From a virus: a stretch of 64,000 nucleotides of DNA. The stretch is taken from IMG/VR virus record IMGVR_UViG_3300034093_002579, positions 1 through 64,000 of that record. One strand, 5' to 3'. Positions 4,324-64,000 of this stretch are shown here, one piece after another (position 1 is the first letter of the stretch; the number at the start of each line of letters is the position of its first letter). Made by a program: the position numbers and the translations under genes. The notes beneath the pieces were generated by a model that made no database searches, was not told the DNA's origin, and saw only the letters and a program-made list of their open reading frames with translations.

Positions 4324-4400
4324 TAAAACAATTCGGGGTTAGGTTGACAATCTGTTATAAAATCGTGGTTTCCTAAGACTGAAAAAAAAAACAAAAAAAA

Positions 4401-4443
4401 GATTTGGTAAATCGAAAAACTTTACCTACCTTTGTACAACAAA
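4401..4443 (+). repeat. Promoter-bearing direct repeat, copy 1 (P2)
   Basis: A 43-base unit repeated at 4492-4534 with about three mismatches, offset 91 bases. It contains TTTG at 4403-4406, a 20-base spacer and TACCTTTG at 4427-4434, i.e. promoter P2. Duplication of a strong promoter is typical of highly expressed stable RNAs. Confidence 0.8.
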
Positions 4444-4475: not shown

Positions 4476-4491
4476 AAAAAAAATAAAAAAA

Positions 4492-4534
4492 GATTTGGTA
4501 AATCAAAAAAGTTTACCTACCTTTGTAAAACAAA
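4492..4534 (+). repeat. Promoter-bearing direct repeat, copy 2 (P3)
   Basis: Second copy of the 43-base unit, with TTTG at 4494-4497, a 20-base spacer and TACCTTTG at 4518-4525, i.e. promoter P3. The transcript would start near 4530 and run into the giant RNA. Confidence 0.8.
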
Positions 4535-4552
4535 TCGGAAACGTCCGAAGAA

Positions 4553-4563
4553 GTTCTTTGACA
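4553..4563 (+). promoter_or_regulatory. boxA-like antitermination element
   Basis: AGTTCTTTGACA (4552-4563) matches E. coli rrn boxA TGCTCTTTAACA at 9 of 12 positions, and resembles the leader found before Bacteroidota rRNA genes. Its place about 25 bases after the start of a long untranslated RNA is what NusB/S10-type antitermination would need. Confidence 0.5.
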
Positions 4564-5829
4564 TATTATTATCCATTATAACACTTCGGTGTTGTATAAA
4601 CGATAATCGGCCGTATATGGTCGTTAAATAAACCTCGAAAGGGGGATAAAGTGAAATCATAAGTGTTAATGGTTTTGCGGTTCGGGTAACCGAACTCGAG
4701 TATACAAGTGGGATATCAGTGAGCCTGTAGTACCGAGGATAACTTCGTAGGGAAATGGAAAACTGAACGGGCAATGTGGATTGTCAGTTTGAGGTGGGAA
4801 CACCAATAAGAATAACCCATAGGAATCAAGTGAGAAGTGTACTCCAAATACACAATTGCGGGTTCCAATATAAGAGGTGACTTAAAACCGAAGGGATTAA
4901 CCTGAAGGTAAGATAGAGAACGAATGGTGTCGCTACTATCCTTACCACAGACCCACCAAGGTCTTGGTACGAAGTAATCTTAAAATATGAGAGTGGGGAC
5001 ACTCTACCGAGTAGACAAGTATCTTGTTGTTCAAAAGATAACGAGGCTTAAGACGGACCTCTACTTGGAATCATCCACAACACAAAACTTATACTAAATT
5101 TAAGTAAAACTAAAAGACATATAAGCAAAAGTGTTCGTCAGGTTTTGATGAAAGTCGCCTACATAGTCATGAGTTGTTCATGGCATACTGAGACCGCAAG
5201 TCGATGTATATTGTTACCAAAAACCTCCAAGGAGTCGAATCCTGAGTCAGTTCGCAAGATTGAAGAGAGTAGAGTAGTAATAGAGTAGTTAAAACCTTAA
5301 GGAGTGATTGGTCTAACCAATCGGCGATGAGAGTTACCATTCAAAAGATGGTGGAAATGAAGGGAACCAAATAATCCTTCTAAAGATTCTCACAAAACGG
5401 TGTATTCTCAGCCTTTAGCCAACCAAAACTATGAAAACAGTGACTCCAATACAGAGAAAAGAGGTAATTACGGTATATTCCTCAAGGTAATGAGTTTAAA
5501 CTTTCCCTTAAAAAAGTCCCATAGAGTGTGTGTTTTTGGTTTTATACTATGTTACAACCTTTATCTGCTCTGATTGATAAATACAAAAAACTAGTGTGTT
5601 TGTGTCAAGACAAGACATCTTCGCTAAAAGATAAAAAACGTCAACACCGATATTCTTAGGTTGTGGATTTTTGTGATAACCACAGGTTTTTTATAGGTGT
5701 CTAAATAAGTAAAAAACCAAAAAACATAGACGTTTAGGTCGCGGATATTCACCTCACGATAGAAGGTCCCATTCGGTGTCACAAACTGATGGAGTGGTTA
5801 AGGTTGTACCACTGAGTAAAAAGCCCAAC

Positions 5830-5862
5830 GGGAATAACATGACGATGTTATTCCCTTTTTTT
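5830..5862 (+). terminator. Terminator of giant RNA
   Basis: GGGAATAACAT, loop GACG, ATGTTATTCCC, then seven T. A perfect 11-bp stem with U-tract that defines the RNA 3' end. Confidence 0.92.
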
Positions 5863-5913
5863 ATGCACTAAAATATAATAATCATACAACACTAATCTAT
5901 AATTTTAACGCAT

Positions 5914-5940
5914 AAAAAAACCCCATCCGAAGATGAGGTT
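5914..5940 (-). terminator. Terminator after tmRNA
   Basis: On the minus strand AACCTCATC, loop TTCG, GATGGGGTT, then a T-run, immediately after the tmRNA 3' end. Confidence 0.85.
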
Positions 5941-5947
5941 TAATGAG

Positions 5948-6333
5948 TGGAGGTAGAGGGGTTCGAACCCTCGTGTTGTACACCTTACCTATTAAGGACT
6001 ACACGCTTAGGATAACATTTTCTAATGTTCCAAAAATAGTTAGTTCGTTCTTCACCATCGTAAACTAACAACCAATGGATGACTCGATTTTGGGTTCAGT
6101 CATTTTTCCACCTTTGTATAGACTTCTGTTCCTAGGTTGTATGTCCACCGACCCGTATGGTGTTTCCTATATGTTAGGCAACAACCGCAGCTTCTTCACG
6201 GATTAATCCGATGGTCGCCATTTTGTCTAAAACGTTTCCGTTTACAGTTTACATCCGTAGATTTAAGTGATAGGATACATCTCACTGCGTGCCCCGAATA
6301 ACTAACAATGCCAGTCAATTCCAAGTTACCCCC
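5948..6333 (-). ncRNA. ssrA: tmRNA (SsrA RNA), phage-encoded
   Basis: Transfer-messenger RNA for rescue of stalled ribosomes, about 386 nt. The 5' end GGGGGTAACTTGGAATTGAC matches the tmRNA start consensus. Its first seven bases pair with TACCTCC before the discriminator A at 5948 (one G-U). The T arm is GAGGG-TTCGAAC-CCCTC. CCA is not encoded. A tag frame begins near tmRNA position 89 (GTA AAC GGA AAC...), as in E. coli where it begins at 90, and ends with GAA GAA GCT GCG GTT GTT GCC TAA. The tag is about 21-22 residues, ending IREEAAVVA, much longer than the roughly 10-residue host tags. Downstream sequence can form several hairpins or pseudoknots. It has its own promoter and terminator. 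Confidence 0.9.
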
Positions 6334-6359
6334 ATATGTTAAAGAACTTATTTCTTTTA

Positions 6360-6390
6360 CAAAGATAGTAAAGTTTTACCAATTACCAAA
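6360..6390 (-). promoter_or_regulatory. Promoter of tmRNA
   Basis: On the minus strand TTTG (6387-6390), a 19-base spacer and TATCTTTG (6360-6367), 26 bases ahead of the mature tmRNA 5' end. A textbook Bacteroidota promoter. Confidence 0.82.
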
Positions 6391-8685: not shown

Positions 8686-8710
8686 AAAAAAAGGGGGTTA
8701 TTCAACCCCT
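8686..8710 (-). terminator. Terminator overlapping clpC-like stop
   Basis: On the minus strand AGGGGTT, loop GAA, TAACCCCC, then seven T. The stem includes the last codons of the ClpC-like gene. Confidence 0.75.
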
Positions 8711-10740
8711 TTTCTTTTTCTTGTGACTTTCTTTTCCTCTTTAAACTTAACATCACCATTTTCACTTATTAACGTGTACTCAGTATTCTCTTGAATGTTA
8801 CTCTTAAGAACCTCTTCAGATATAAAATCTTCAACTTTATCCTGAATAGCTCTTTTCAATGGACGAGCACCATACATTTCATCAAACCCAACCTCAGAAA
8901 TCATATCTAAAATAGAATCGTCAAATTTAATATTATATTTAAGACCTGTCAATCTTTCAGATAAAATACTCAACTCAAGCTTAACAATTTTTTTAACATC
9001 TTCTTTCACTAGTGAATTAAAAATAATAACCTCATCAATACGGTTTAAAAATTCAGGGGCGAAAAACTTCTTAAGTTCCTTCTTCAAAACTTCTCTTTTT
9101 TGTTCTTCTTCAACGTAAGAACTCGAGTTAGTTTTAAATCCTACACCCGCACCAAACTCCTGTAGTTTTTTAACTCCAACGTTTGATGTCATGATAATGA
9201 CACAGTTTTTGAAGTTAATTTTTCTTCCCATACCATCTGTAAGGTGACCGTCATCCAACACTTGTAATAATGTTGAAAATATGTCTTTGTTTGCCTTTTC
9301 AATCTCATCAAATAAAATTACTGAGTAAGGTTTGTTTTTAACTTGTTCAGTTAATTGACCACCTTCGTCATAACCTACATATCCTGGAGGGGCTCCAATT
9401 AATCTTGAGATACTATGTTTTTCTTGGTATTCAGACATGTCCACACGAATCATATTCTCCTCACTACCAAACATTTGTTTTGCCAATTGTTTTGCTAAGT
9501 AAGTTTTACCTACACCTGTTGAACCAAGGAAAATAAATGAACCAATTGGTTTATTAGGGTCTTTAATACCTAATCTGTTTCGTCTGATTGACTTAGCAAT
9601 TTTCATAACCGCTTCAGATTGGCCAATTACTTTGTCAGATAAACTACCCTCTAATTGAGATAGTAACATCGTCTCATTAGCATTCAATTTACTAATAGGA
9701 ATTTTAGTCATGTTTGAAACGACCTCATAAACCAATTCGATAGAAACTTCTTTTTTCTTAATCTGAAGTTCCTCCTCAAATTTTTTCTTCTCAATATCTA
9801 ATTTATTGAGAATACGTTTTTCCTTGTCACGTAGATTTGCCGCCTCTTCGTAATTTTGTTTTTTAACAACCTCAAGTTTTTCAATTTTAACGTCGGCAGC
9901 TTCTTGTTTTAATTTTTCAATAATGTCAGGCATTTTAATCTCAACTTGACATCTCGCACCTACCTCATCAATAATGTCGAATGCCTTATCAGGAAACTCT
10001 CTGTCGGTGATATATCTTGCCGCCAAATCAACACATACTGAAAGTATTTCATCAGTATAAGATACCTTGTGGAATGATTCGTATTTATCTTTAACATTCT
10101 TAAGAATCTCCAAAGTCTCTTCTTTAGTCGCCGCGTCAACAATTACCTTTTGAAAACGTCTTTCTAATGCTCCGTCTTTCTCAAAGTTCTTACGATACTC
10201 ATCAAGAGTTGTTGCACCAACACATTGAATTTCTCCACGGGCAAGTGCTGGTTTGAAGATGTTTGATGCGTCTAACGAACCTGATGAATTACCTGCACCA
10301 ACTATTGTGTGAATTTCGTCAATAAAGACAATGATATTTGGTGCGTTTTGTAACTCCTCGATAATTACTTTCATACGTTCCTCAAACTGACCACGGTATT
10401 TTGTACCCGCAACAATCGATGTCATGTCTAACGAAACAATTCTTTTATCCATTAAATTTCTTGGACATTCACCGTTAAAAATTTTAATTGCTAATCCTTC
10501 TACGATTGCGGTTTTACCACAACCAGGTTCACCAATAATAATAGGGTTATTTTTCTTTCTACGAGAAAGGATTTGAGCAATCCTTGTAATTTCTCTTTCT
10601 CTACCAACAACAGGGTCTAATTTACCTTGTTCGGCCAATTTGATTAAATCTCGGCTGAAGTTATCCAACACAGGTGTTGATGAGTCAGATGTTGATTTAG
10701 GTGGGTTATTCTTTCCCCCATTATCCATGGATTCTATCAT
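8698..10740 (-). CDS. ClpC-like AAA+ unfoldase lacking N domain
   Basis: Hsp100/Clp ATPase with two AAA+ modules, 680 aa against about 810 for ClpC. D1 has Walker A GEPGCGKT (residues 70-77) and Walker B VFIDEIHT. The middle segment has a UVR-like NYEEAANLRDKEK, which marks ClpC rather than ClpB. D2 has GSTGVGKT and ILFDEIEKA, plus a GAGVGFKT loop where the ClpP-docking VGF tripeptide of ClpC lies. The N-terminal Clp repeat domain that binds adaptors is missing; D1 starts after about 35 residues of Ser/Asn/Pro-rich linker. It may therefore couple to host ClpP with altered substrate choice, and could degrade or spare tmRNA-tagged proteins. It has a TACCTTTG promoter box 54 bases upstream. Confidence 0.92.
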   Translation of the reverse strand: MIESMDNGGKNNPPKSTSDSSTPVLDNFSRDLIKLAEQGKLDPVVGREREITRIAQILSRRKKNNPIIIGEPGCGKTAIVEGLAIKIFNGECPRNLMDKRIVSLDMTSIVAGTKYRGQFEERMKVIIEELQNAPNIIVFIDEIHTIVGAGNSSGSLDASNIFKPALARGEIQCVGATTLDEYRKNFEKDGALERRFQKVIVDAATKEETLEILKNVKDKYESFHKVSYTDEILSVCVDLAARYITDREFPDKAFDIIDEVGARCQVEIKMPDIIEKLKQEAADVKIEKLEVVKKQNYEEAANLRDKEKRILNKLDIEKKKFEEELQIKKKEVSIELVYEVVSNMTKIPISKLNANETMLLSQLEGSLSDKVIGQSEAVMKIAKSIRRNRLGIKDPNKPIGSFIFLGSTGVGKTYLAKQLAKQMFGSEENMIRVDMSEYQEKHSISRLIGAPPGYVGYDEGGQLTEQVKNKPYSVILFDEIEKANKDIFSTLLQVLDDGHLTDGMGRKINFKNCVIIMTSNVGVKKLQEFGAGVGFKTNSSSYVEEEQKREVLKKELKKFFAPEFLNRIDEVIIFNSLVKEDVKKIVKLELSILSERLTGLKYNIKFDDSILDMISEVGFDEMYGARPLKRAIQDKVEDFISEEVLKSNIQENTEYTLISENGDVKFKEEKKVTRKRKGVE

Positions 10741-57736: not shown

Positions 57737-60700
57737 ATGCCGAATTATCAAAGACTGACCGACAGAACCCAAGCTCCGATAGTATCTCCAGATGACATTG
57801 TACACATTGTCATTACGGGTGATACATCACAAAACCCCGCAGGTTCATCATATAAAGCAAGTATCCAACAAATTGCGGATGCTCTATCCCTTGCTGGTAC
57901 TTCAGGTACTGCAGGAACAAGTGGTGTTAATGGTTCATCAGGAACAAGTGGTGTTAATGGTTCGTCAGGTTCAAGTGGTCAAAATGGTACTTCAGGTTTA
58001 AGTGGTTCTTCAGGAAGTAGTGGAACATCAGGAAGTAGCGGTTCTTCGGGTAGTTCAGGAACTAAAGGAACATCAGGTTCAAGTGGTACTTCAGGAATAT
58101 CAGGTTCTAGTGGAACAAGTGGTTCATCAGGAAGTTCAGGTTCAAGTGGTTCATCAGGAAGTTCAGGTTCAAGTGGTTCTTCTGGTAGTAGTGGTTCTTC
58201 AGGAACTAACGGTTCTTCAGGAACTAACGGTTCTTCAGGAACTAACGGTTCATCGGGTTCATCGGGTTCTTCGGGTGAAAGTGGTTCATCAGGAACATCG
58301 GGTACGTCAGGTAGTAGTGGTTCTTCTGGTAGTAGTGGTTCTTCAGGAACTAACGGCTCTTCAGGGACTAACGGCTCTTCAGGGACTAACGGCTCTTCAG
58401 GGACTAGTGGAAGTTCGGGTACTGATGGTTCATCAGGTACTTCAGGTACTGATGGTAGTTCAGGAACAAGTGGGACTGACGGTTCTTCAGGAACGTCAGG
58501 TTCTTCAGGAACAAGTGGGATTGACGGTTCTTCAGGAACTTCAGGAACTGACGGTAGTTCGGGAACTTCAGGTGCTGATGGTTCTTCGGGAACTTCAGGG
58601 TCTAGTGGTATAAGTGGTGTTAATGGTTCTTCAGGGACTTCAGGTATTAGTGGGACCGATGGTAGTTCAGGTACGTCAGGAAATAGTGGGTCTTCAGGAA
58701 CATCAGGAACAGATGGTTCTTCAGGAACATCGGGCTCAAGCGGAACAAGTGGTACCAATGGTAGTTCAGGTACAAGTGGAACTGACGGTAGTTCAGGTAC
58801 AAGTGGAACTGACGGTAGTTCAGGAACTAGTGGTATTGACGGTTCTTCAGGAACAAGCGGTACTGACGGTAGTTCAGGAACAGATGGTTCATCAGGAACT
58901 AGTGGAACAGATGGTTCTTCAGGAACATCGGGCTCAAGTGGTACAGATGGTAGTTCAGGTACAAGCGGAACTGACGGTAGTTCAGGAACTTCAGGAACAG
59001 ATGGTTCATCAGGAACTAGCGGAAGTTCAGGAACAGATGGTTCATCAGGAACAAGTGGAACTGACGGAAGTTCAGGCACTTCGGGTTCAAGCGGATTAAG
59101 TGGTGTTGATGGTTCTTCAGGAACAAGTGGAACTGACGGTAGTTCAGGAACAGATGGTTCATCAGGAACTAGCGGAACTGACGGTAGTTCAGGAACAAGC
59201 GGAAGTTCAGGAACAGATGGTTCTTCAGGAACAAGTGGAACGGATGGTTCTTCAGGGACTAGCGGTTCTTCAGGAACAAGTGGGAGTTCAGGTACTTCAG
59301 GAACTGATGGTTCTTCAGGAACAAGTGGAACTGACGGTAGTTCAGGAACAAGTGGTACCGATGGTTCAAGTGGTACCTCGGGTTCAAGTGGAATTAGTGG
59401 TGTTAACGGAACTAATGGTACGTCAGGTTCTTCAGGAACAAGCGGAACAGATGGTTCATCAGGGACAAGCGGTAGTTCAGGAACAGATGGTTCATCAGGA
59501 ACTAGTGGTACTAACGGTTCTTCAGGAACTAGCGGAACAGATGGTTCATCAGGAACAAGTGGAACTAGCGGAACAGATGGGTCATCGGGAACAAGTGGAA
59601 CATCAGGTTCAAGTGGATTAAGTGGTGTTGACGGTTCTTCAGGAACAAGCGGAACAGACGGTTCTTCAGGAACTAGCGGTACTGATGGTTCTTCAGGAAC
59701 AAGCGGAACTGATGGTTCTTCAGGTACTAGTGGAACAAGCGGAACAGATGGTTCTTCAGGAACAAGTGGAACATCAGGTTCAAGTGGATTAAGTGGTGTT
59801 GATGGTTCTTCAGGTACTTCAGGAACAGATGGTTCTTCAGGAACAAGTGGAAGTTCAGGTACTTCAGGAACAGATGGTTCATCAGGAACTAGCGGTACTG
59901 ACGGTAGTTCAGGTACTTCAGGAACATCGGGGTCAAGTGGTTCTTCAGGAACTAGCGGTACTGATGGTTCTTCAGGAACAAGCGGAACTGATGGTTCTTC
60001 AGGTACAAGTGGAAGTTCGGGTACTGATGGTTCTTCAGGTACAAGTGGAAGTTCTGGTACAAGCGGTTCTTCAGGTTCAGGCGGTTCCTCAGGAACAAGT
60101 GGAACAGATGGTAGTTCAGGTACTAGTGGAACAGATGGTTCTTCAGGTACTTCAGGGACAGATGGTTCATCAGGTACTTCAGGAACAGATGGGTCATCGG
60201 GAACAAGTGGAAGTTCGGGTACTGACGGTAGTTCAGGAACTAGCGGAACTGATGGTTCTTCAGGAACATCGGGGTCAAGCGGATTAAGCGGTGTTGATGG
60301 TTCTTCAGGTACAAGCGGAACTGACGGTTCTTCAGGGACTAGTGGGAGTTCAGGAACTGATGGTTCTTCAGGAACTAGTGGTACATCAGGTACAGACGGC
60401 TCTTCAGGAACTAGCGGTACATCAGGTACAAGTGGGACAGATGGTAGTTCAGGAACCTCGGGTTCAAGTGGATTAAGTGGTGTTGATGGTTCTTCAGGAA
60501 CTAGCGGAACTGACGGTAGTTCAGGAACAGATGGTTCTTCAGGAACTAGTGGAAGTTCAGGAACTAGTGGAAGTTCAGGTACAGATGGTTCTTCAGGAAC
60601 AAGTGGAACGGATGGTTCTTCAGGGACTAGCGGTTCTTCAGGAAGTTCAGGAACAAGTGGTACTGACGGTTCTTCAGGAACTAGCGGGACAGATGGCTCG

Positions 60701-63700
60701 TCAGGTTCAAGTGGTATTAGTGGTGTGAATGGTTCATCAGGAACAAGCGGTACTAACGGTTCATCGGGGACCAGTGGTTCTTCAGGAACAGATGGTTCAT
60801 CAGGAACAAGTGGTTCGTCAGGAACAAGTGGGACTGATGGTAGTTCAGGAACAAGCGGTACGGATGGTAGTTCAGGAACAAGCGGAACTGACGGTTCTTC
60901 AGGCACTAGCGGAACAGATGGTTCATCAGGTACTTCAGGTACTAGTGGAACAGATGGTTCATCAGGAACTAGCGGAACAGATGGTTCATCAGGAACAGAT
61001 GGTTCTTCAGGAACTTCGGGAACAGATGGCTCTTCAGGTACTAGTGGAACTTCAGGAACAGATGGTAGTTCAGGAACAAGTGGAACTAATGGGAGTAGTG
61101 GAACATCAGGTTCAAGTGGATTAAGTGGTGTTGACGGTTCTTCAGGAACAAGCGGAACAGATGGTTCTTCAGGAACAAGTGGAAGTTCAGGTACTTCAGG
61201 AACAGATGGTTCTTCAGGAACAAGCGGAACAGATGGTTCTTCAGGGACTAGTGGGAGTTCAGGAACTGATGGTTCTTCAGGAACTAGTGGTACATCAGGT
61301 ACAGACGGCTCTTCAGGAACTAGCGGTACATCAGGTACAGACGGCTCTTCAGGAACTAGCGGAAGTTCGGGAACTGATGGTTCTTCAGGAAGTAGTGGTA
61401 CTTCAGGTACAGACGGCTCTTCAGGAACATCAGGTACTAGTGGAACCGATGGTTCTTCAGGAACAAGTGGAACCGATGGTTCTTCAGGAACAAGTGGAAC
61501 TTCAGGAACAGACGGTTCTTCAGGAACATCAGGAACAGACGGTTCTTCAGGAACTTCAGGTACAGACGGCTCTTCAGGAACATCAGGTACTAGTGGAACC
61601 GATGGTTCATCAGGAACAAGCGGAACTGATGGTTCTTCAGGAACATCGGGTTCAAGCGGATTAAGTGGTGTTGATGGTTCTTCAGGAACTTCAGGAATAG
61701 ATGGTTCTTCGGGAACTAGTGGTACTTCAGGTACTGATGGTTCATCGGGAACAAGTGGAAGTTCAGGTTCATCAGGAACTAGCGGTAGTTCAGGTACTTC
61801 AGGAACATCAGGTTCAAGTGGATTAAGTGGTGTTGATGGTAGTTCAGGTACAAGTGGAACTGATGGTTCTTCAGGAACTAGCGGAACTGATGGTTCTTCA
61901 GGAACTAGCGGAACAAGTGGTACAGATGGTTCTTCAGGAACTAGTGGTACTTCAGGTACGGATGGCTCATCAGGAACATCAGGTACTAGTGGAACAGATG
62001 GTTCATCAGGAACATCAGGTACTAGTGGAACAGATGGTTCATCAGGAACAGATGGGTCAAGTGGAACTTCAGGAACAAGCGGAACTGACGGTAGTTCAGG
62101 TACAAGTGGAACAGATGGTTCATCAGGAACGGATGGTAGTAGCGGAACTTCAGGCTCAAGTGGTATTAGTGGTGTAAATGGTTCATCAGGAACAAGTGGT
62201 ACATCTGGTTCAAGCGGAACAAGTGGCTCATCAGGAACTTCAGGGTCAAGTGGGACATCAGGTTCTAGTGGAACAAGTGGGTCTTCAGGTACAAGCGGGT
62301 CATCAGGTTCAAGTGGTTCGTCAGGAACAAGTGGTAGCTCGGGTACATCAGGCACTAGCGGTAGTTCAGGTTCATCGGGGACATCAGGTTCAAGTGGTTC
62401 GTCAGGAACTAGCGGAACAGATGGTTCTTCAGGAACATCGGGTTCTTCAGGAACATCAGGTTCAAGTGGTACTTCAGGTTCGTCAGGAACTAGTGGTTCA
62501 TCAGGAACTAGCGGAACATCGGGGTCAAGCGGTTCTTCAGGGTCTAGCGGAACAAGTGGAACATCAGGAAGTTCAGGTTCATCAGGAAGTTCAGGGTCTA
62601 GTGGTTCGTCAGGTACTGCGGGTACAAGCGGAACGTCAGGAAGTTCAGGTTCATCAGGAACTAGCGGTAGTTCAGGTACAAGTGGTTCATCGGGAACAAG
62701 TGGAACGTCAGGTTCTTCGGGTACTTCAGGAACTAATGGTTCATCAGGAACATCGGGTTCAAGTGGTTCATCGGGAACAAGTGGAACGTCAGGTTCTTCG
62801 GGTACTTCAGGAACAAGCGGTTCATCAGGAACAAGTGGTTCATCAGGAACAAGTGGTTCATCAGGAACAAGTGGTTCATCAGGAACTAACGGAAGTTCAG
62901 GAACTAGCGGAACTTCAGGTTCAAGTGGTACTTCAGGAACTAGTGGAAGTTCAGGGTCATCAGGTTCAAGTGGTTCTTCAGGAACTAGCGGAAGTTCAGG
63001 TACGTCAGGGACAAGTGGTTCTTCAGGAACATCAGGTACTAGCGGAACATCAGGTACAAGTGGTTCATCAGGAACTAGCGGAAGTTCAGGTACGTCAGGG
63101 ACAAGTGGTTCTTCAGGAACTAGCGGAACTTCAGGTTCAAGTGGTTCATCAGGAACTAACGGGTCATCAGGAACTTCAGGTTCTGCGGGTACAAGTGGGA
63201 CTAGCGGAACATCAGGTACTAGCGGAAGTTCAGGTACATCAGGAAGTTCAGGTTCTAGTGGTAGTTCAGGTTCATCAGGGTCTAGTGGGACAAGCGGTTC
63301 ATCGGGGTCAAGCGGTTCTTCAGGTACTGCAGGTACAAGTGGAAGTAGTGGAACATCAGGGTCAAGCGGTTCTTCAGGTACAAGTGGAACATCAGGTTCT
63401 AGTGGTAGTTCAGGTTCTAGTGGAAGTAGTGGAACATCGGGAACGTCAGGTAGTTCAGGTTCAAGTGGTACATCGGGTAGTTCAGGAACGTCGGGGACAA
63501 GTGGTTCTTCAGGAACTAGTGGAACTTCAGGTTCTTCAGGAACTAGCGGTTCTTCAGGTACGAGTGGCTCATCAGGTTCTTCAGGAACTAGCGGAACTTC
63601 AGGTACGAGTGGCTCATCAGGAACATCAGGTTCATCAGGTAGTTCGGGCTCAAGTGGAACAAGTGGTTCGTCAGGAACAAGTGGTAGCTCGGGTACATCA

Positions 63701-64000
63701 GGCACTAGCGGTAGTTCAGGTTCAAGTGGCTCATCAGGTTCATCAGGGTCTAGTGGGACAAGTGGTTCTTCAGGAACTGCAGGTACATCAGGTTCATCAG
63801 GAACTTCAGGTACGTCTGGCTCAAGTGGTAGTAGCGGTTCATCAGGTTCAAGTGGTTCATCAGGAACTTCAGGTAGTTCAGGTTCAAGCGGTAGTAGCGG
63901 CTCTTCAGGAACTGCGGGTACTAGTGGAACGTCAGGAAGTTCAGGTTCGTCGGGGTCAAGTGGTTCTTCAGGAACTAGCGGAACTTCAGGTTCAAGTGGT
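57737..64000 (+). CDS. Giant collagen-like Gly-X-Y fibre (3' end outside window)
   Basis: The frame is open from ATG 57737 to the last base: 2088 codons so far. The first about 52 residues (MPNYQRLTDRTQAPIVSPDD, VHIVITGDTSQNPAG, SIQQIADALSL) look like a virion-attachment head. From about residue 53 onward every third residue is Gly. The triplets are almost only GTS, GSS, GTD, GTN and GTA, with essentially no Pro. That is a collagen-like pattern without the usual stabilising Pro. The block (L/I)SGV(N/D)GSSG recurs about 12 times between 58.6 and 62.2 kb. GTD dominates 58.4-62.2 kb and is almost absent after. Long trimeric tail fibre is the likely role. Ser/Thr content near two thirds offers many possible O-glycan sites. 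Confidence 0.88.
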   Translation, partial: MPNYQRLTDRTQAPIVSPDDIVHIVITGDTSQNPAGSSYKASIQQIADALSLAGTSGTAGTSGVNGSSGTSGVNGSSGSSGQNGTSGLSGSSGSSGTSGSSGSSGSSGTKGTSGSSGTSGISGSSGTSGSSGSSGSSGSSGSSGSSGSSGSSGSSGTNGSSGTNGSSGTNGSSGSSGSSGESGSSGTSGTSGSSGSSGSSGSSGTNGSSGTNGSSGTNGSSGTSGSSGTDGSSGTSGTDGSSGTSGTDGSSGTSGSSGTSGIDGSSGTSGTDGSSGTSGADGSSGTSGSSGISGVNGSSGTSGISGTDGSSGTSGNSGSSGTSGTDGSSGTSGSSGTSGTNGSSGTSGTDGSSGTSGTDGSSGTSGIDGSSGTSGTDGSSGTDGSSGTSGTDGSSGTSGSSGTDGSSGTSGTDGSSGTSGTDGSSGTSGSSGTDGSSGTSGTDGSSGTSGSSGLSGVDGSSGTSGTDGSSGTDGSSGTSGTDGSSGTSGSSGTDGSSGTSGTDGSSGTSGSSGTSGSSGTSGTDGSSGTSGTDGSSGTSGTDGSSGTSGSSGISGVNGTNGTSGSSGTSGTDGSSGTSGSSGTDGSSGTSGTNGSSGTSGTDGSSGTSGTSGTDGSSGTSGTSGSSGLSGVDGSSGTSGTDGSSGTSGTDGSSGTSGTDGSSGTSGTSGTDGSSGTSGTSGSSGLSGVDGSSGTSGTDGSSGTSGSSGTSGTDGSSGTSGTDGSSGTSGTSGSSGSSGTSGTDGSSGTSGTDGSSGTSGSSGTDGSSGTSGSSGTSGSSGSGGSSGTSGTDGSSGTSGTDGSSGTSGTDGSSGTSGTDGSSGTSGSSGTDGSSGTSGTDGSSGTSGSSGLSGVDGSSGTSGTDGSSGTSGSSGTDGSSGTSGTSGTDGSSGTSGTSGTSGTDGSSGTSGSSGLSGVDGSSGTSGTDGSSGTDGSSGTSGSSGTSGSSGTDGSSGTSGTDGSSGTSGSSGSSGTSGTDGSSGTSGTDGSSGSSGISGVNGSSGTSGTNGSSGTSGSSGTDGSSGTSGSSGTSGTDGSSGTSGTDGSSGTSGTDGSSGTSGTDGSSGTSGTSGTDGSSGTSGTDGSSGTDGSSGTSGTDGSSGTSGTSGTDGSSGTSGTNGSSGTSGSSGLSGVDGSSGTSGTDGSSGTSGSSGTSGTDGSSGTSGTDGSSGTSGSSGTDGSSGTSGTSGTDGSSGTSGTSGTDGSSGTSGSSGTDGSSGSSGTSGTDGSSGTSGTSGTDGSSGTSGTDGSSGTSGTSGTDGSSGTSGTDGSSGTSGTDGSSGTSGTSGTDGSSGTSGTDGSSGTSGSSGLSGVDGSSGTSGIDGSSGTSGTSGTDGSSGTSGSSGSSGTSGSSGTSGTSGSSGLSGVDGSSGTSGTDGSSGTSGTDGSSGTSGTSGTDGSSGTSGTSGTDGSSGTSGTSGTDGSSGTSGTSGTDGSSGTDGSSGTSGTSGTDGSSGTSGTDGSSGTDGSSGTSGSSGISGVNGSSGTSGTSGSSGTSGSSGTSGSSGTSGSSGTSGSSGTSGSSGSSGSSGTSGSSGTSGTSGSSGSSGTSGSSGSSGTSGTDGSSGTSGSSGTSGSSGTSGSSGTSGSSGTSGTSGSSGSSGSSGTSGTSGSSGSSGSSGSSGSSGTAGTSGTSGSSGSSGTSGSSGTSGSSGTSGTSGSSGTSGTNGSSGTSGSSGSSGTSGTSGSSGTSGTSGSSGTSGSSGTSGSSGTSGSSGTNGSSGTSGTSGSSGTSGTSGSSGSSGSSGSSGTSGSSGTSGTSGSSGTSGTSGTSGTSGSSGTSGSSGTSGTSGSSGTSGTSGSSGSSGTNGSSGTSGSAGTSGTSGTSGTSGSSGTSGSSGSSGSSGSSGSSGTSGSSGSSGSSGTAGTSGSSGTSGSSGSSGTSGTSGSSGSSGSSGSSGTSGTSGSSGSSGTSGSSGTSGTSGSSGTSGTSGSSGTSGSSGTSGSSGSSGTSGTSGTSGSSGTSGSSGSSGSSGTSGSSGTSGSSGTSGTSGSSGSSGSSGSSGSSGTSGSSGTAGTSGSSGTSGTSGSSGSSGSSGSSGSSGTSGSSGSSGSSGSSGTAGTSGTSGSSGSSGSSGSSGTSGTSGSSG
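57893..64000 (+). repeat. 9-bp-phased Gly-Ser/Thr coding repeat, over 6 kb
   Basis: Continuous repeats of GGTTCTTCAGGAACAAGT-like units, period 9 and 18 bp with varied synonymous codons. Not a CRISPR: no constant repeat with unique spacers. The mixed synonymous codons suggest selection against perfect repeats. Confidence 0.9.

Follow-up and report, generated by a model that had tools for sequence, protein, structure and literature searches.

A GOLLD RNA with a boxA-like leader element beside a tmRNA gene in a Bacteroidota phage

GOLLD and ROOL are giant phage RNAs which form cages, and the role of GOLLD has been a long-standing question since its discovery. Nearness to tRNA genes is usual for GOLLD, although it does not define the class. 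The solved env-38 GOLLD RNA is 833 nt long and forms a 14-mer hollow cage, the interior of which is empty except for a disordered linker; the expression of GOLLD rises at lysis, and ribosomes bound GOLLD in pull-downs (PMC12286853). For the antitermination complex of rRNA operons, boxA is both necessary and sufficient; the complex may also aid RNA folding, and E. coli has one of its boxA sets upstream of 23S as well (PMC10250234). It has also been described that huge phages encode tmRNA and SmpB, in a report which does not mention GOLLD (PMC7162821); both genes likewise occur in the phage genomes studied here, but as a recurring module with GOLLD. In the literature that we searched, which does not include the founding 2009 paper, we did not find a boxA leader, a tmRNA neighbour or an smpB neighbour described for GOLLD, and in the papers examined that name both GOLLD and tmRNA, the latter is mentioned as just one more expressed RNA.

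In this work we have analysed a 64-kb stretch of an IMG/VR record (the window), which belongs to a Bacteroidota phage and contains the genes for terminase, portal and the major head protein. Taken as a whole, the explanation which we consider likely from the sequence is that positions 4533-5862 are the transcription unit, about 1.33 kb long, of a Bacteroidota-phage GOLLD RNA. That the giant RNA at this locus is GOLLD appears close to certain, because a match to the Rfam family is joined by held-out covariation in both domains. The parts of the RNA are as follows:

4609 to 5006, plus strand: GOLLD 5' domain, recognized by held-out covariation; the cap domain by analogy with env-38
5007 to 5414, plus strand: GOLLD 3' domain, a complete match to positions 1-416 of Rfam RF02032 (326.8 bits, E 7.3e-93)
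5069 to 5133, plus strand: linker of variable sequence and length, unpaired in the consensus and variable in the alignment

The gathering score of RF02032 is 150 bits, and in an Rfam scan of the whole window only two matches exceeded the cut-off, one to GOLLD at 5007-5414 and one to tmRNA at 6333-5945 of the minus strand; ROOL, which this RNA resembles as a giant phage RNA predicted to form a cage, was not matched. The initial annotation had proposed either a giant RNA in the style of GOLLD or ROOL or a new class, and had suggested a search with the Rfam models. The first of these stands, since the RNA is GOLLD itself by Rfam, whereas a new class is ruled out by the full-length match. The same annotation saw no plausible protein gene over 1.3 kb, and we agree: in a scan of all six frames of 4526-5862 the longest stop-free run was 87 codons, and alignment with the nearest relatives revealed indels of 2, 4 and 9 nt, not all of them multiples of three, so a protein gene is ruled out. 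Its remark that GOLLD is shorter than this RNA was mistaken and confused the length of the unit with that of the core. The GOLLD core, 4609-5414, measures 806 nt, which is ordinary for GOLLD when set against the 833 nt of env-38, and the unit exceeds it because a lineage-specific stretch at 5415-5829 adds length. The likeness to env-38 thus comprises a full-length 3' domain, a covarying 5' domain, an unpaired linker, the phage location and the core length. The unit differs from known GOLLDs in its boxA leader, its tandem Bacteroidota promoters and, in this lineage, a 415-nt 3' extension, and its neighbourhood is one of tmRNA and smpB, not of tRNA.

A search of IMG/VR with a GOLLD 3'-domain motif yielded 91 stretches. 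About 30 distinct relatives align across the whole of 4596-5422, with identity down to 61%, and homology to related GOLLDs stops sharply at about 5414-5422. RNAalifold predicted 201 pairs from 31 sequences, with two-sided changes in 147 of them. To avoid circularity, 15 sequences, that of the window among them, served to derive the structure, and the remaining 16 to test it. In these held-out sequences the 5' domain was 97.4% paired, with two-sided changes in 70 of 97 pairs (shuffle mean 39, maximum 48), and the 3' domain was 97.2% paired, with such changes in 63 of 91 pairs (shuffle mean 36, maximum 45); when the partner was slid by 1-3 columns, pairing fell from 97% to 33-48%. The predicted fold of 4533-5414 was also better than that of shuffled sequences (z -2.9, none of 20 as good). 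The covariation among homologues which had been put forward as a check on the structure was thus found in both GOLLD domains, and on this evidence from 31 related phage RNAs 4609-5006 is the GOLLD 5' domain. The stretch 5069-5133 is the counterpart of the disordered linker in the solved GOLLD (PMC12286853), and homology makes it plausible that the RNA of the window forms a multi-subunit cage. The clade also provides both domains at full length in dozens of sequences, and so covers the 5' domain, which is absent from the Rfam model. Two huge phages of 634-642 kb, LR756502 and LR745206 (loci L093 and L094), whose records were deposited unannotated, carry GOLLD-like RNAs related to that of the window.

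The unit is bounded by the following elements:

4403 to 4434, plus strand: promoter P1 (TTTG-N20-TACCTTTG), Bacteroidota-type, first of two tandem copies
4494 to 4525, plus strand: promoter P2 (TTTG-N20-TACCTTTG), Bacteroidota-type, with a predicted transcription start near 4533
5830 to 5862, plus strand: intrinsic terminator with an 11-bp stem, a GACG loop and T7

It is well known that TTTG/TAnnTTTG is the housekeeping promoter consensus of Bacteroidota. The pattern TTTG-N20-TAnnTTTG occurs 11 times in the 64 kb, against 4.2 expected, and the two copies before GOLLD each lie in one copy of a 59-nt direct repeat (4385-4443 and 4476-4534, 92% identical). The tandem layout is also present in relatives L004, L005, L014, L015 and L042. 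The terminator stem, 5830-5840 with 5845-5855, is perfect over 11 bp and is followed by seven T, and one of its pairs shows a compensatory change from A-U to G-C between the window and L015. Tandem strong promoters at the 5' end and a perfect 11-bp terminator at the 3' end, both claimed earlier, are therefore borne out, the promoters lying just upstream of the start of 4526 which was then given. Separately, we observed the palindrome GGTAAA-N9-TTTACC in the spacers of both GOLLD promoters (4406-4426 and 4497-4517) and nowhere else in the window; it is a possible operator. As a wider promoter feature it was rejected, since outside the window only the nearest relatives share it.

The GOLLD 3' end is separated from the terminator by a segment which most relatives lack:

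5415 to 5829, plus strand: 3' extension of about 415 nt, non-coding and lineage-specific

It was seen only in near-identical contigs and, at 93% identity, in L015, L029 and L058, and none of the other GOLLDs examined has it. The GOLLD of the sister phage L040 runs into a terminator after at most about 70 nt, with smpB behind it; elsewhere among the relatives, GOLLD is soon succeeded by a terminator, either directly or after a tRNA. Could the extension be a separate small RNA or recombination debris, and not a part of the GOLLD RNA? We regard this as nearly an even question. Besides its absence from the sister phage and the other GOLLDs, the neighbouring DNA lends it some weight: the spacer between terminator and tmRNA, together with the 3' part of the tmRNA, is more alike between L007 (1575-1905) and the window (5848-6154) than the adjacent GOLLD, and this points to a recombination junction where GOLLD ends. 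However, no terminator was seen where GOLLD passes into the extension, the 93% identity of the latter to the L015 copy is the conservation level of GOLLD itself, and its substitutions tend to spare pairs. Of the 15 substitutions within it, 3 pairs were broken versus 6.4 expected (P 0.04), with no compensatory change inside the extension; as a positive control, the 3' domain compared between the same two phages showed 5 compensatory pairs and 1 broken pair versus 14 expected. The fold of 5415-5862 was matched by 1 of 100 shuffles (z -2.8). Fewer broken pairs and a better-than-shuffle fold, yet without compensatory change, only suggest that the extension is structured. The structured RNA of about 1.3 kb in the initial annotation is accordingly upheld by homology and covariation as far as about 5414-5422, and beyond this point its structure is no more than suggested. 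The extension was not found elsewhere when phage records, genome contigs (with one 20-mer) and viral contigs (with three patterns) were searched; three further matches to the last pattern in viral contigs were chance matches. It showed no meaningful similarity that would make it a decayed smpB, a duplicated tmRNA, a piece of rRNA or a GOLLD duplicate.

The leader of GOLLD and that of the neighbouring tmRNA both contain an element which resembles boxA:

4553 to 4563, plus strand: boxA-like element GTTCTTTGACA in the GOLLD leader
4580 to 4594, plus strand: variable leader hairpin with a UUCG loop, a predicted fold which is replaced or varied in relatives
6337 to 6347, minus strand: boxA-like element GTTCTTTAACA immediately ahead of the tmRNA 5' end

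The boxA of rRNA operons is the site of NusB/S10 in antitermination. The motif GTTCTT[TA][GA]A, chosen after the alignment was seen, stands between promoter and first helix in 31 of 31 clade leaders and in none of 35 sequences on the opposite strand, with a background of 2.7% per 200 nt. The exact 16-mer of the window, AGTTCTTTGACATATT, occurs at 118 or more loci in bacterial genome contigs, and among the matches listed 49 of 118 lie at most 600 nt upstream of 23S rRNA. When 13 of the loci, selected for their resemblance to rRNA operons, were scanned with Rfam, most proved to contain rRNA genes, and the complete operons read 16S, tRNAs, box and 23S. The 16-mer of the GOLLD leader is thus identical to an element of Bacteroidota rRNA operons which lies just before 23S, and the idea that it precedes 16S rRNA was ruled out, as it sits in the 16S-23S spacer. 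It shares with the rRNA-operon boxA this match and a position in an untranslated leader, and differs in preceding a phage non-coding RNA. The tmRNA element GTTCTTTAACA matches exactly the published boxA consensus GYTCTTTAANA, which is gammaproteobacterial (PMC5725501). From these comparisons we judge it likely that the GOLLD leader box is a functional boxA. It is not a general GOLLD feature: in Lactobacillales-type GOLLDs no boxA was found within 2.5 kb upstream, and of the two huge-phage GOLLDs examined one (L094) has it. Since a terminator directly follows the RNA, antitermination, if any, does not override that terminator. The box could instead be a decoy, in which an abundant phage RNA draws NusB/S10 off the rRNA operons of the host and thereby lowers host ribosome synthesis, the GOLLD fold serving for stability. 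The retention of boxA in every clade leader would fit such a role, and competition for NusB/S10 could be expected of an RNA which is abundant and bears a boxA; we nevertheless find it improbable, given that the tmRNA bears the same box, as expected for ordinary transcription of non-coding RNA, and that a decoy has no need of a conserved 806-nt fold.

The tmRNA gene comprises the following features:

5914 to 5939, minus strand: terminator of the tmRNA gene, stem-UUCG-stem with T7 on the minus strand
5945 to 6333, minus strand: phage tmRNA, Rfam RF00023 (65.9 bits, gathering 47), convergent with GOLLD
6360 to 6390, minus strand: tmRNA promoter (TTTG-N19-TATCTTTG), a sequence pattern

The adjacent tmRNA noted in the initial annotation is thus recovered by Rfam, and its arrangement is conserved in relatives. 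ARAGORN reported neither tRNA nor tmRNA in the window and so missed the latter; the usual proximity of GOLLD to tRNA is not seen here, and a tmRNA is found instead. The predicted tag ends ...ATIGLIREEAAVVA-stop, and a stop also closes the tag frame in every aligned relative but L113, a divergent one. We also observed that the window and loci L097-L112 keep an unusual tag, ...G-L-[ILV]-R-...-V-x-V/T-A-stop, which does not have the LAA ending. As this peptide is kept while its codons vary, the tagged phage proteins may have a special fate. Thirty GOLLD-bearing records were searched, with tmRNA found in 21 and SmpB in 10. Where at least 3 kb of downstream sequence was available (24 records including the window), a convergent tmRNA lay at most 2.7 kb downstream of GOLLD in 20 and smpB within 125 nt of GOLLD in 2 others, counts which are not independent, because records share descent and three L015-type records form one lineage with the window. 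Where smpB is present, it lies 85-1276 nt downstream of GOLLD; it was not found in the window's own record, a fragment of 88.9 kb. No tmRNA above the cut-off was found in records with Lactobacillales-type GOLLDs, which rules it out as a general GOLLD neighbour. In five loci (L004, L018, L072, L076 and L006) a tRNA-like sequence lies directly 3' of GOLLD and before the terminator, so that GOLLD and tRNA seem to be co-transcribed there.

Does GOLLD then act in translation? It is possible, though somewhat doubtful, that its function lies in translation or ribosome rescue, as could be expected from the conserved linkage to tmRNA and smpB, the rRNA-type leader element and the ribosome binding reported for GOLLD. 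It may, to an equal degree, serve as a capsule or as a cage for storage with no relation to translation, with the proximity of tmRNA, smpB and tRNA reflecting the clustering of phage RNA genes. Phage genes for tRNA, tmRNA and GOLLD do gather in shared RNA regions, Lactobacillales-type GOLLDs have tRNAs before or after them instead, and the cage interior is empty but for the linker (PMC12286853). Against this, the arrangement is more than proximity: in all 20 close cases whose downstream sequence was long enough the tmRNA is convergent, all 10 smpB genes share the strand of GOLLD, and the pattern holds for GOLLDs with identity as low as 61%. We favour a cage RNA expressed in the style of rRNA because of the boxA work (PMC10250234) and the data on the GOLLD cage, lysis and ribosomes (PMC12286853). 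A host-type polymerase would start at the two tandem promoters, and boxA would probably give a processive polymerase, modified by Nus factors, which aids the folding of the long RNA. The transcript would fold into two GOLLD domains joined by the unpaired linker, as covariation indicates, and by homology may assemble into a multi-subunit hollow cage like that of env-38; synthesis would end at the terminator beyond the lineage-specific tail. The abundant cage would act on the translation apparatus in infection, in concert with the phage tmRNA and often SmpB, which are encoded just downstream. Neither boxA nor tmRNA can be needed for GOLLD function in general, since Lactobacillales-type GOLLDs show neither. 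It is a more speculative and rather unlikely proposal that in Bacteroidota phages GOLLD, tmRNA and SmpB are one functional module, in which the boxA-expressed cage stores, protects or recycles ribosomes, tmRNA or tRNAs, and the 415-nt structured tail adds cargo or a new function in this lineage. The control by boxA together with ribosome-rescue neighbours would be a clue to the role of giant phage RNAs. If it is a true one, experiments could ask whether the cage binds ribosomes, tmRNA-SmpB or tRNAs, and whether GOLLD folding needs Nus factors.

Some other genes of the window deserve mention. The GOLLD gene is closely preceded, at 19-630 and 876-1958 on the plus strand, by genes for two RNA ligases of different kinds (Pfam RNA_ligase and RNA_lig_T4_1), enzymes which are known from phages that repair cleaved tRNAs; we count them among the signs of a link to translation. 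Near the tmRNA, at 8698-10740 on the minus strand, is a phage double AAA+ Clp ATPase of the ClpC/ClpB type with 680 aa, which could act on tmRNA-tagged proteins. Finally, a reading frame of 1908 aa at 57979-63705 on the minus strand, faced by long open frames on the plus strand, is probably a repetitive protein.
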